DNA of 64,000 bases from the NCBI GenBank assembly GCA_028715605.1, contig JAQURM010000002.1, positions 248,001 through 312,000 on the forward strand, given 5' to 3'. The position numbers and the translations under genes were made by a program. This document shows, one piece after another, positions 13,811 to 55,255 of this stretch. The notes beneath the pieces are model-generated. The model was given only the letters and a program-made list of their open reading frames with translations. It did not search any database and had not been told where the DNA came from. The first letter of the stretch is position 1, and each line of letters begins with the position of its first letter. The DNA comes from Desulfovibrionales bacterium (lineage in GTDB: Bacteria > Desulfobacterota > QYQD01).

Positions 13811-13838
13811 TCAAGTGATCCCCCTTGCCTTCCGATAA
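13811..13838 (+). promoter_or_regulatory. Sigma-28 (FliA) type promoter of fliC
   Basis: TCAAGTGA - 12 nt - TCCGATAA; the -10 part differs from the enterobacterial GCCGATAA in one base. The spacer length equals that of three other candidates in this window. Transcription would start near 13845 and leave a leader of about 210 nt before fliC. That leader holds two small hairpins (about 13913-13929, and TGGCA-AGGA-TGCCA near 13942) and an R4-like CTCGTAACC tract (13965-14033). Confidence -1.
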
Positions 13839-32021: not shown

Positions 32022-32049
32022 TTATCGGCAGTATTAGTCTGAAACTTTA
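32022..32049 (-). promoter_or_regulatory. Sigma-28 promoter of motA-motB
   Basis: Read on the minus strand: TAAAGTTT - 12 nt - GCCGATAA. Both boxes match the enterobacterial FliA consensus exactly. The -10 box lies 53 bp before the motA ATG. Confidence -1.
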
Positions 32050-53162: not shown

Positions 53163-53343
53163 GTGTCCAGATAGTGCCTAAAATTTTTCAACCATTCCGC
53201 AGATTACCCTTTCAGCCTCTTCGCCTTTTCTTGTCTTGTTTGCTAAATTATAGTATCATCGCGGACATATGAAAAATCGACGAAAAAGTAGAGCCGATAT
53301 AAGTTATAAATGTGATGTCGTTCAAATTTTTTAAATAGATGCT

Positions 53344-54474
53344 ATGAATGATACAAAAGTCCATAACATAGATGAATATATTACAAAATCGAACAATCTT
53401 CTAAGCAGTGGTTTTTTCACCTATAGAGGCCAGTACTGTTCATCATGGTCTCTTGAACCTGGAATTATAAGGAAAATTAAAAATACATATAATGGAATTG
53501 GAGAAAGCGGTTTATTATTCAGACTTTCGGTTGATCATCTAATTGAGATATTAAAAAAAGCGAGATCTAATAAGTATTTTTCAGATGATATATGTGATTT
53601 AAATATCCTCGCTATTCTTCAGCATTATGGAGCCGCAACACCACTGCTTGATTTCTCAAATGATCCATTAGTGGCGTTATACTTTGCTTGCCAACCATGT
53701 AAAGATAAAGATGCCGAATCTGATGGTAACGTTTTTTGCATCAATTATTCTAGCCAAATCAGATCAAATTCTTCACCATTGCGACCTGTCAATGACCCAT
53801 CTCTTATAAACATAGAATCTGCTTTAAATGATACCAGTCGTTACATATGGTACTGGTCGCCCCCTAATGATCTTTGTAAAAGAAGCAAAAAACAGCAGTC
53901 GGTTTTTGTCTTTGGCTGGGGATTATATTGGAAATATGACACAAAGAAGCTTATTGATGAATTAAAGATATTAATCATTTCTGCCGAAAGCAAGAAAGGT
54001 ATTTTGAAAGATTTGAAAGAAAAATATGATATTTCAGAACAGACACTTTTCCCTGATATATATGGTTTTGCGCAATCGAACCGCTACGATAAAATAATTC
54101 AACATTACAGTGCAGAAGAATTCTATGATAAAGGCGAAGAACAATGGGGGGATGGCAGCCCCGAATGGGCAGCAGAATATTATAAAATGGCATACACTAC
54201 TAAAAAGCTTGAATGGATAGATGCAAGATGCAAATGTGCCCTTGCTTTAAGTTGGAATGGCGAACAAAATAAGGCTTTAAATGTTATTGATGAATCGATA
54301 AAGAAATTTGGTGAATTTTGGAAATATTACGCATGTAGAGCGATTATAATCTGGAAAATAGAACAAGATTGGAAAGATGATCTGAGAAGAGCCGAGGAAT
54401 TAGCTAATAATGCAAATGAAAGCTCTGAATTTAAAACTTTTGTAAATGACTACAGTGTATTGCCTTACGATTAA
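53344..54474 (+). CDS. FRG-domain protein with TPR-like C-terminus
   Basis: 376 aa. The FRG domain is visible in the first 200 residues: FFTYRGQY (Arg28-Gly29-Gln30) and LQHYGAATPLLDFSNDPLVALYFA (about 98-121). The C-terminal third has helix pairs (AEYYKMAYTTKKLEW, CKCALALSWNGEQNKAL) like TPRs. FRG domains are of unknown biochemical role and are often seen near phage-defence genes. The gene is far more AT-rich than its neighbours, lies between two strong terminators and right after a tRNA, and looks acquired. No ribosome site of the usual strength precedes it. No partner gene is seen. Confidence -1.
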   Translation: MNDTKVHNIDEYITKSNNLLSSGFFTYRGQYCSSWSLEPGIIRKIKNTYNGIGESGLLFRLSVDHLIEILKKARSNKYFSDDICDLNILAILQHYGAATPLLDFSNDPLVALYFACQPCKDKDAESDGNVFCINYSSQIRSNSSPLRPVNDPSLINIESALNDTSRYIWYWSPPNDLCKRSKKQQSVFVFGWGLYWKYDTKKLIDELKILIISAESKKGILKDLKEKYDISEQTLFPDIYGFAQSNRYDKIIQHYSAEEFYDKGEEQWGDGSPEWAAEYYKMAYTTKKLEWIDARCKCALALSWNGEQNKALNVIDESIKKFGEFWKYYACRAIIIWKIEQDWKDDLRRAEELANNANESSEFKTFVNDYSVLPYD

Positions 54475-54516
54475 GAAGGAAATAAGGGGCAATATAGGAT
54501 GCCCCCTAAATCCTAA

Positions 54517-54555
54517 TAAACAAGGGCTTGGGAAAGATTCCCAAGCCCTTGTTTA
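54517..54555. terminator. Bidirectional terminator between the FRG gene and the riboswitch-controlled gene
   Basis: Perfect stem AACAAGGGCTTGGGAA / TTCCCAAGCCCTTGTT with an AGA loop. A-runs and T-runs flank it on both sides, so it can end transcripts from both directions. Confidence -1.
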
Positions 54556-54576
54556 GGTATGGACCTTTAAAGTGTA

Positions 54577-54924
54577 TCATGCCATCTTGTCAAAGAAACT
54601 TTGTTTTTGGGCAGTAACCTGGGTTTTTCCATTTTGGTCATATTGTTCGTAAACTTTTTCCTCTTTACCAGTCGTGCTAATTTTCTGAGTATTAAATTTC
54701 AACCCGGCATCAGAATCAAATATCTTAGGGAAATCAGAACCGATCCCCTGCTCCATAATAGTAAGTTTCTCGTTGTTTATATAAATAGAGGATTCCGTCT
54801 GGTCTGGAGTGCTCGCCAGTTTTTGGCCAGTTACGTGAGCATATGGCTCCTTGCCATCTTCGGGCCTCCTGAATTGCCCGGGTTGCTGTTGCCGAATGTG
54901 AACGGTGGTCTCATTGATTTTCAT
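54577..54924 (-). CDS. Unknown 115-aa protein under sigma-28 and c-di-GMP riboswitch control
   Basis: I do not recognise a family. The protein is hydrophilic and has no signal peptide or membrane helix. The N-terminal part is polar (INETTVHIRQQQPGQFRRPE). The middle has ESSIYINNEKLTIMEQGIGSD, like short beta strands. The C-terminus is KEEKVYEQYDQNGKTQVTAQ and then SFFDKMA. GGTGA lies 6 nt before the ATG. The leader of about 200 nt has, in order, a sigma-28-like promoter, a GEMM c-di-GMP riboswitch and a terminator hairpin. That control points to a flagellar or surface-attachment role, such as an exported or regulatory late flagellar protein. This is inference from regulation only. Confidence -1.
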   Translation of the reverse strand: MKINETTVHIRQQQPGQFRRPEDGKEPYAHVTGQKLASTPDQTESSIYINNEKLTIMEQGIGSDFPKIFDSDAGLKFNTQKISTTGKEEKVYEQYDQNGKTQVTAQKQSFFDKMA

Positions 54925-54982
54925 GTCATTTCACCATTCATGAATAATGCGCTGCCAGGTTGTAACTAAGTGTCCGGGCATT

Positions 54983-55027
54983 GAAAACGAAAAGCCCGCT
55001 TCCAAAGGTGGGAAGCGGGCTTTTCAG
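54983..55027 (-). terminator. Riboswitch expression platform: intrinsic terminator
   Basis: Minus strand: stem GAAAAGCCCGCTTCC / GGAAGCGGGCTTTTC (54989-55025), 15 bp perfect, 7-nt loop, followed by GTTTTC. It begins 16 nt after the aptamer core ends and 60 nt before the start codon, so it is placed to be controlled by the aptamer. Confidence -1.
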
Positions 55028-55040
55028 TTATAAACATTCA

Positions 55041-55121
55041 CTTGGCAACCCCGCTGCCCTGTCCGCTCAAGCGGATTTAGGCCGGAAGCTTTGCGTCCCA
55101 ACCTTTCGGAAGATTTGCCCT
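55041..55121 (-). ncRNA. Cyclic di-GMP-I (GEMM) riboswitch aptamer
   Basis: Read on the minus strand, the class I landmarks occur in order: AGGGCAAA, a short stem closed by a GAAA tetraloop (CCGAAAGG), GGGACGCAAAGC, the receptor stretch TTCCGGCCTAAA, a P3 hairpin CCGC-TTGA-GCGG, and GCAGCGGGGTTGCC. This matches the Vibrio Vc2-type aptamer layout from memory. It binds c-di-GMP; whether binding turns the gene on or off cannot be told without folding the terminator alternatives. Confidence -1.
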
Positions 55122-55131
55122 TCGATAATAT

Positions 55132-55159
55132 ATATCGGCATACTGACAAAAAAACTTGA
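55132..55159 (-). promoter_or_regulatory. Sigma-28 type promoter of the riboswitch transcript
   Basis: Minus strand TCAAGTTT - 12 nt - GCCGATAT: seven of eight bases fit FliA at each box. Transcription would begin close to 55125, just before the aptamer. Rest of 55122-55255: no gene seen. Confidence -1.
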
Positions 55160-55255
55160 AAAATTATCAGGATAACGGCAACTACAAGGTCAAGAGCTTT
55201 TCGTGCTGTGTGGGAAATAACGGGACGCCTTGAATATTCTTACGGCTTTGAGCTT

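Follow-up and report, generated by a model that had tools for sequence, protein, structure and literature searches.

From its sequence, the minus-strand module described here probably (at a probability of roughly 0.6) forms a two-input, one-gene unit in which active sigma-28 and low c-di-GMP would together lead to the production of a small, possibly flagellum-linked protein, and which belongs to a recurring, mobile cassette. The module lies in a window of 64,000 nucleotides, the whole stretch of DNA analysed, from a contig of a Desulfovibrionales bacterium. The initial annotation had described it as an AND gate that combines a sigma-28 promoter with a c-di-GMP riboswitch. That architecture is well supported here and is recurrent in other genomes.

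Architecture of the transcription unit

The unit comprises the following features, in the order in which they would be transcribed.

55152..55159, minus strand: sigma-28 -35 element TCAAGTTT, containing TCAAG, with an N15 spacing as in the organism's own flagellin promoter
55132..55139, minus strand: sigma-28 -10 element GCCGATAT, 12 nt after TCAAGTTT
55041..55129, minus strand: c-di-GMP-I (GEMM) riboswitch aptamer, full-length match to RF01051 (73 bits, E=2e-12, cut-off 35 bits)
55047..55058, minus strand: aptamer 3' strand GGCAGCGGGGTT, proposed antiterminator strand (folding of the growing transcript; complementarity p=0.007)
55011..55022, minus strand: AAGCCCGCTTCC in the 5' arm of the terminator, proposed antiterminator partner (folding and complementarity)
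54989..55025, minus strand: intrinsic terminator of 15 bp, arms 55025-55011 and 55003-54989, 100% complementary, 7-nt loop
54931..54935, minus strand: weak ribosome binding site (GGTGA), located 6 nt upstream of the start codon
54577..54924, minus strand: ORF of 115 residues (P0001), the regulated gene, with third-position bias in its comparable part
54808..54924, minus strand: codons 1-39 of P0001, homologous to the N-terminus of the FlgM protein of locus L057 (51% identity)
54517..54555, no strand assigned: perfect 18-bp hairpin after the ORF, a probable terminator

The RF01051 search bears out the earlier description of a GEMM-type aptamer with all its landmarks, and the 15-bp terminator described behind it is indeed a perfect stem. 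This is the only copy of RF01051 in the 2.56-Mb genome. In its GGGCAAA segment, a G falls at what we take to be position 20 of the Vc2 numbering, the ligand-contact position that separates c-di-GMP sensors from cGAMP sensors. The hairpin at the 3' side of the ORF was absent from the initial annotation; with it, the module appears as a complete, closed one-gene transcription unit.

A flagellar promoter in front of the riboswitch

In its short form, the module promoter reads TCAAG-N15-GCCGATA, which matches 11 of 12 positions when scored as TAAAG, a spacing of 14-15 nt and GCCGATA. Scores of at least 11/12 occur in ~0.02% of shuffled 80-nt leaders. Two promoters of the same window serve for comparison.

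13811..13837, plus strand: flagellin promoter TCAAG-N15-TCCGATA, identical to the riboswitch promoter in its -35 box and spacing
32023..32049, minus strand: motA promoter TAAAG-N15-GCCGATA

Its resemblance to these two promoters places the module promoter in the organism's own dialect. FliA is encoded in the genome (250 bits, for a cut-off of 189.6), as are a canonical FlgM on another contig, flagellin and three GGDEF domains. Thus, a motif with the right spacing, a FliA protein and a similar motif at class III genes are all found, and the sigma-28 promoter first proposed for the minus strand stands on its 11/12 match, a -35 box shared with the organism's flagellin and an encoded FliA.

That the promoter is a chance match, with the riboswitch transcribed from elsewhere, is very improbable. 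One -35 position does deviate from TAAAG, and 0.45 sites of such quality are expected per shuffled window; the actual window holds four that reach 11/12, one of which is the motA promoter. Against a coincidence, the site directly precedes the only GEMM of the genome, its -35 box and spacing are those of the organism's own flagellin promoter, and TCAAG variants recur before GEMMs in Nitrospira and Desulfobacterota.

Based on this promoter, transcription is expected to start near position 55125. The distance from GCCGATA to GGCAAA is 13 nt here, compared with 16-38 nt in nearly all other cases. Because the -10 box is so near the aptamer, the transcript may begin inside P1, which would weaken ligand binding and is a point against the switch model.

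Predicted switching mechanism

In folds of the growing transcript, GGCAGCGGGGUU, the 3' strand of the aptamer, is base-paired to AAGCCCGCUUCC in the terminator's 5' arm until the 3' arm of the terminator exists, and this antiterminator is part of the minimum-energy fold. From this pairing, the module is predicted to be OFF at high c-di-GMP; on which way the switch works, the initial annotation had taken no position. The complementarity between aptamer and terminator exceeds that of shuffled sequences here (p=0.007) as well as in L057 (0.006), L027 (0.011), L013 (0.034) and L289 (0.039), and is not significant in L130, L142, L051, L133 and L012, which weighs against the model. Enforcing the aptamer in the antiterminator state costs 14.6 kcal/mol (-29.4 versus -44.0). 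The greater part of this cost could be covered by nanomolar binding of c-di-GMP together with tertiary contacts, which are not included in the computed energies. The cost is somewhat above what nanomolar binding alone would pay and counts against the switch model.

In the proposed sequence of events, polymerase carrying FliA would start near position 55125, such that RNA would be made only when sigma-28 is free, and the c-di-GMP-I aptamer would be the first RNA to emerge. At low c-di-GMP, GGCAGCGGGGUU would pair with AAGCCCGCUUCC, no terminator would form and the polymerase would read through. At high c-di-GMP, the bound aptamer is predicted to retain GGCAGCGGGGUU, so that the 15-bp terminator forms and transcription ends. 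The gene would thus be ON under two joint conditions, active sigma-28 and low c-di-GMP, i.e. in swimming cells. Its product would be a small protein, free of cysteine, that resembles the N-terminus of a FlgM over its first 39 residues and is devoid of the sigma-binding half of FlgM. Expression only after hook completion, as had been proposed for this gene, is what textbook sigma-28/FlgM biology leads one to expect.

Both polarities are known for c-di-GMP-I riboswitches, which lends some weight to the opposite, rather improbable direction, in which c-di-GMP would favour read-through and the gene would be expressed with active sigma-28 and high c-di-GMP, in cells about to settle. The Flp and type IV pilins found behind similar leaders (see below) would fit such a surface-attachment programme. 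However, in the minimum-energy fold the terminator is blocked by the free aptamer strand, and no ligand-dependent anti-terminator was found in the module sequence. Both observations point to the OFF direction at high c-di-GMP.

A product with a FlgM-like N-terminus

The 115-residue protein had been said to belong to no recognised family, and searches of Pfam, NCBIfam and PHROGs gave no significant match. No homologues were found above threshold in the species-genome collection (scanned with a peptide pattern), in viral contigs, in plasmids or among 58 relatives. The lack of a full-length homologue, including in four congeners, counts against the model.

Residues 1-39 of P0001 are 51% identical to residues 1-39 of the FlgM protein of L057, a Desulfobacterales operon (E=7e-8 for a database size of one million residues), and the reciprocal search of 297 genomes with L057 FlgM returned P0001 (E=3.6e-6). 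Over the shared N-terminal stretch, nucleotide differences number 7, 11 and 22 at codon positions 1, 2 and 3, respectively, as expected of translated sequence. The L057 leader has the layout of the module, with TCAAG-N14-GCCGATA, an aptamer and a CCCGCTTC...GAAGCGGG terminator, and is 66% identical to the module leader. There is no full-length homologue by which to judge whether homologues share the riboswitch and the promoter, but the one locus with a homologous N-terminus has promoter, aptamer and terminator.

In FlgM proteins, the signal for flagellar export resides in the N-terminal half, and sigma-28 is bound by the C-terminal half. P0001 itself is not a FlgM, since the C-terminus of FlgM is missing from it and FlgM profiles do not recognize it: the profile of the phylum scores it below shuffled sequences, and neither PF04316, which covers the sigma-28-binding C-terminal region, nor TIGR03824 matches. 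Its FlgM-type N-terminus likewise has no detectable sharing with the general FlgM profile of the phylum. A frameshifted FlgM remnant was also rejected, as no FlgM C-terminus is encoded in either alternative frame of the ORF region. AlphaFold modelling of P0001 alone, with no alignment, gave no confident structure (pLDDT 35). Our best guess, a weak one derived from the N-terminal similarity, is that P0001 may be a small protein linked to the flagellum, which might leave the cell by the flagellar secretion channel. Of the 'late flagellar or adhesion factor' suggested initially, the flagellar link is hinted at by the FlgM-type N-terminus, whereas P0001 bears no adhesin hallmark.

Comparison with known systems

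C-di-GMP-I riboswitches with terminators are well known. The module resembles the RF01051 riboswitches with intrinsic terminators (clan CL00126, which also includes RF03167, c-di-GMP-I-GGC) in its aptamer with all landmarks and in a terminator that can compete with the 3' strand of the aptamer. It differs from the usual RF01051 systems in that its sigma-28 promoter is almost on the aptamer and that the controlled gene has no known family. Its similarity to FlgM (PF04316) resides in residues 1-39, which match the N-terminus of L057 FlgM, and in the presence of FlgM behind similar leaders in L038, L114, L081 and L057; unlike FlgM, P0001 has no C-terminal sigma-binding region. The large flgB operon of Clostridioides difficile has a c-di-GMP-I riboswitch in its 496-nt leader (PMC7438776). 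Both are c-di-GMP riboswitches in flagellar transcripts, but the module consists of one small gene under a class III (sigma-28) promoter.

The closest precedent is merRNA of Bdellovibrio bacteriovorus, a c-di-GMP riboswitch RNA that is abundant in the motile phase, measures 445 nt and has no conserved ORF (PMC3627812). Similar to the module, merRNA is a c-di-GMP riboswitch RNA tied to a motile phase, the FliA-dominated attack phase. By analogy, the product of the module might be the short terminated aptamer RNA itself (~125-140 nt), acting as a c-di-GMP sink in motile cells, with the ORF as a passenger. The strong terminator directly behind the aptamer and the lack of a full-length homologue of the ORF are in line with this reading, which we nevertheless regard as unlikely. 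In the N-terminal part of the ORF, codon bias is of the coding type and there is a match at the protein level, and conserved proteins are encoded behind similar leaders elsewhere. The module also has antiterminator complementarity, a ribosome site, the ORF and a closing hairpin; merRNA differs from it in the antiterminator, ORF and closing terminator. Furthermore, merRNA is much longer, and its table entry notes no FliA promoter (PMC3627812). A translated gene under a two-input leader is the more probable reading.

Neither a recurring sigma-28/c-di-GMP-riboswitch module nor a flgM riboswitch was found described in the literature searched, which left out preprints and most subscription journals.

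Recurrence of the promoter-riboswitch combination

We scanned a genome collection in which each species is represented by one genome. The search pattern, GCCGATA with two conserved GEMM blocks behind it, gave at least 117 sites. With a covariance model built from the GEMMs of the phylum, 54 of the 117 listed sites were classed as real aptamers and 63 as chance matches. A -35 box, defined as at least 4/5 of TAAAG 13-17 nt before GCCGATA, was present among the matches listed in 40 of the 54 real aptamers and in 3 of the 63 chance matches (Fisher p=7e-16, an optimistic value because related species, e.g. three Nitrospira, were counted separately). As the -35 box is outside the search pattern, this comparison is an independent test. 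In the real aptamers among the matches listed, its spacing is always 14 or 15 nt, with little excess at other distances.

In 395 genomes of the phylum, the scan returned nine pattern sites, all nine of which are GEMM leaders and eight of which have a clear -35 box, while a reversed control pattern gave no site in the same genomes. Unselected GEMMs of the phylum rarely have a close promoter site scoring at least 11/12 (3 of 65). Three more of the 65 (L012, L024 and L029) have a perfect 12/12 TAAAG-N15-GCCGATA located 150-190 nt upstream of the aptamer; these long-leader sigma-28 promoters were missed by the close-range scan. With three close sites and three perfect, more distant ones, the idea that GEMMs in general are sigma-28-driven was rejected. 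The RF03167 variant was dropped as a candidate sigma-28-linked class, as RF03167 and RF01051 match the same loci.

The pairing of promoter and GEMM was seen in Desulfobacterota, Nitrospira, Armatimonadota, Actinomycetota, Bacillota and others. The order promoter-riboswitch is therefore not confined to the module but recurs across several phyla. Judged on these scans, the sigma-28/GEMM combination is genuine and has arisen or spread repeatedly enough to recur, although it is a minority arrangement. In a Geobacter sp. MAG (L134:3453-4642, plus strand), four GEMM aptamers are present within 1.2 kb, at least one of them with a CTAAAG-N14-GCCGATA promoter.

Genes behind similar leaders

FlgM (PF04316) is encoded directly after the leader in two Armatimonadota (L038 and L114) and in L081, where the -35 box matches only 3/5, and as the second gene in L057, on a Desulfobacterales contig. 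No GEMM lies near the canonical flgM loci of the phylum. In L139 (Actinomycetota), which has a GEMM and a sigma-28-like promoter, a fragment resembling the FlgM C-terminus was detected below cut-off.

Small proteins with both flagellar rod domains (PF00460 and PF06429) follow the leader in three Nitrospira (L063, L075 and L085) and in L054, and are encoded by the second gene in L108. Flp pilins or TadE-like genes were found in several genera (L004, L011, L077, L103 and L120, and several loci of the phylum, L290-L294 and L297), and Tad pilus genes are thus apparently under the control of the flagellar sigma factor and of c-di-GMP. Type IV pilins are present in two Actinomycetota with sigma-28-like promoters, L111 (650-1487, plus strand, Thermoleophilaceae) and L146. 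In Gammaproteobacteria and Burkholderiales, GEMM leaders precede DUF1631 proteins, recognized by Pfam match in L035 and by appearance in L046, L107 and L145. A sigma-28 -35 box was observed at L035 and L145.

A family of exactly 77 residues is encoded behind the terminator in L036, L074, L108 and L133, in all four cases by the first gene after a sigma-28 promoter, a GEMM and a terminator. Its members, which are 31-64% identical, are acidic and probably unstructured, contain GKVNP and a C-terminal RIIDLLG-like motif, and have no Pfam match above cut-off.

Genomic context and origin

The module is part of a variable segment of the window.

53165..55220, no strand assigned: variable low-GC block with the module and an FRG-domain gene, 37.7% GC compared with 49.6% in the window

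Alignments to congeners stop near 55220 and 53165. Between those points congener G001 has a transposase-like gene, and past the end of the hydrogenase genes G004 has an unrelated gene. Both congeners lack the block at the corresponding site. P0001 is absent from the four congeners. Most likely, the module was gained as a cassette beside a tRNA gene in the present species; its loss in the congeners is a possible alternative. In G001 (L241:3316-4299, minus strand), the gene that replaces the module between the hydrogenase operon and the tRNA gene resembles REP-associated transposases. The FRG-domain protein (PF08867; 53344-54474, plus strand) shares the low-GC block beside the tRNA gene. FRG proteins are frequent in defence islands.

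Implications for flagellar control

The two main controls of flagellar expression, c-di-GMP and the sigma-28/FlgM checkpoint, have mostly been studied as separate layers joined via proteins. The recurring arrangement suggests a reusable device that ties the building of the flagellum to the choice between swimming and settling. More broadly, and at slightly less than even odds, the sigma-28 promoter and c-di-GMP-I riboswitch may be a reused, horizontally mobile module in several phyla, by which late flagellar genes, including the one for the anti-sigma-28 factor FlgM, and new families of small unstructured proteins are jointly checked for flagellar assembly and c-di-GMP on one transcript; P0001 would be a dedicated product with a FlgM-like export end and no sigma-binding end. 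In about 50 of the loci surveyed, the organism is named and the target gene can be read; several of these genes code for conserved small proteins with no family name. Both the logic of the device and its products are therefore testable. If the proposal is true, sigma-28 transcripts, in some lineages even that of flgM, carry a leader RNA that senses c-di-GMP directly, and c-di-GMP would gain direct feedback onto the flagellar checkpoint.
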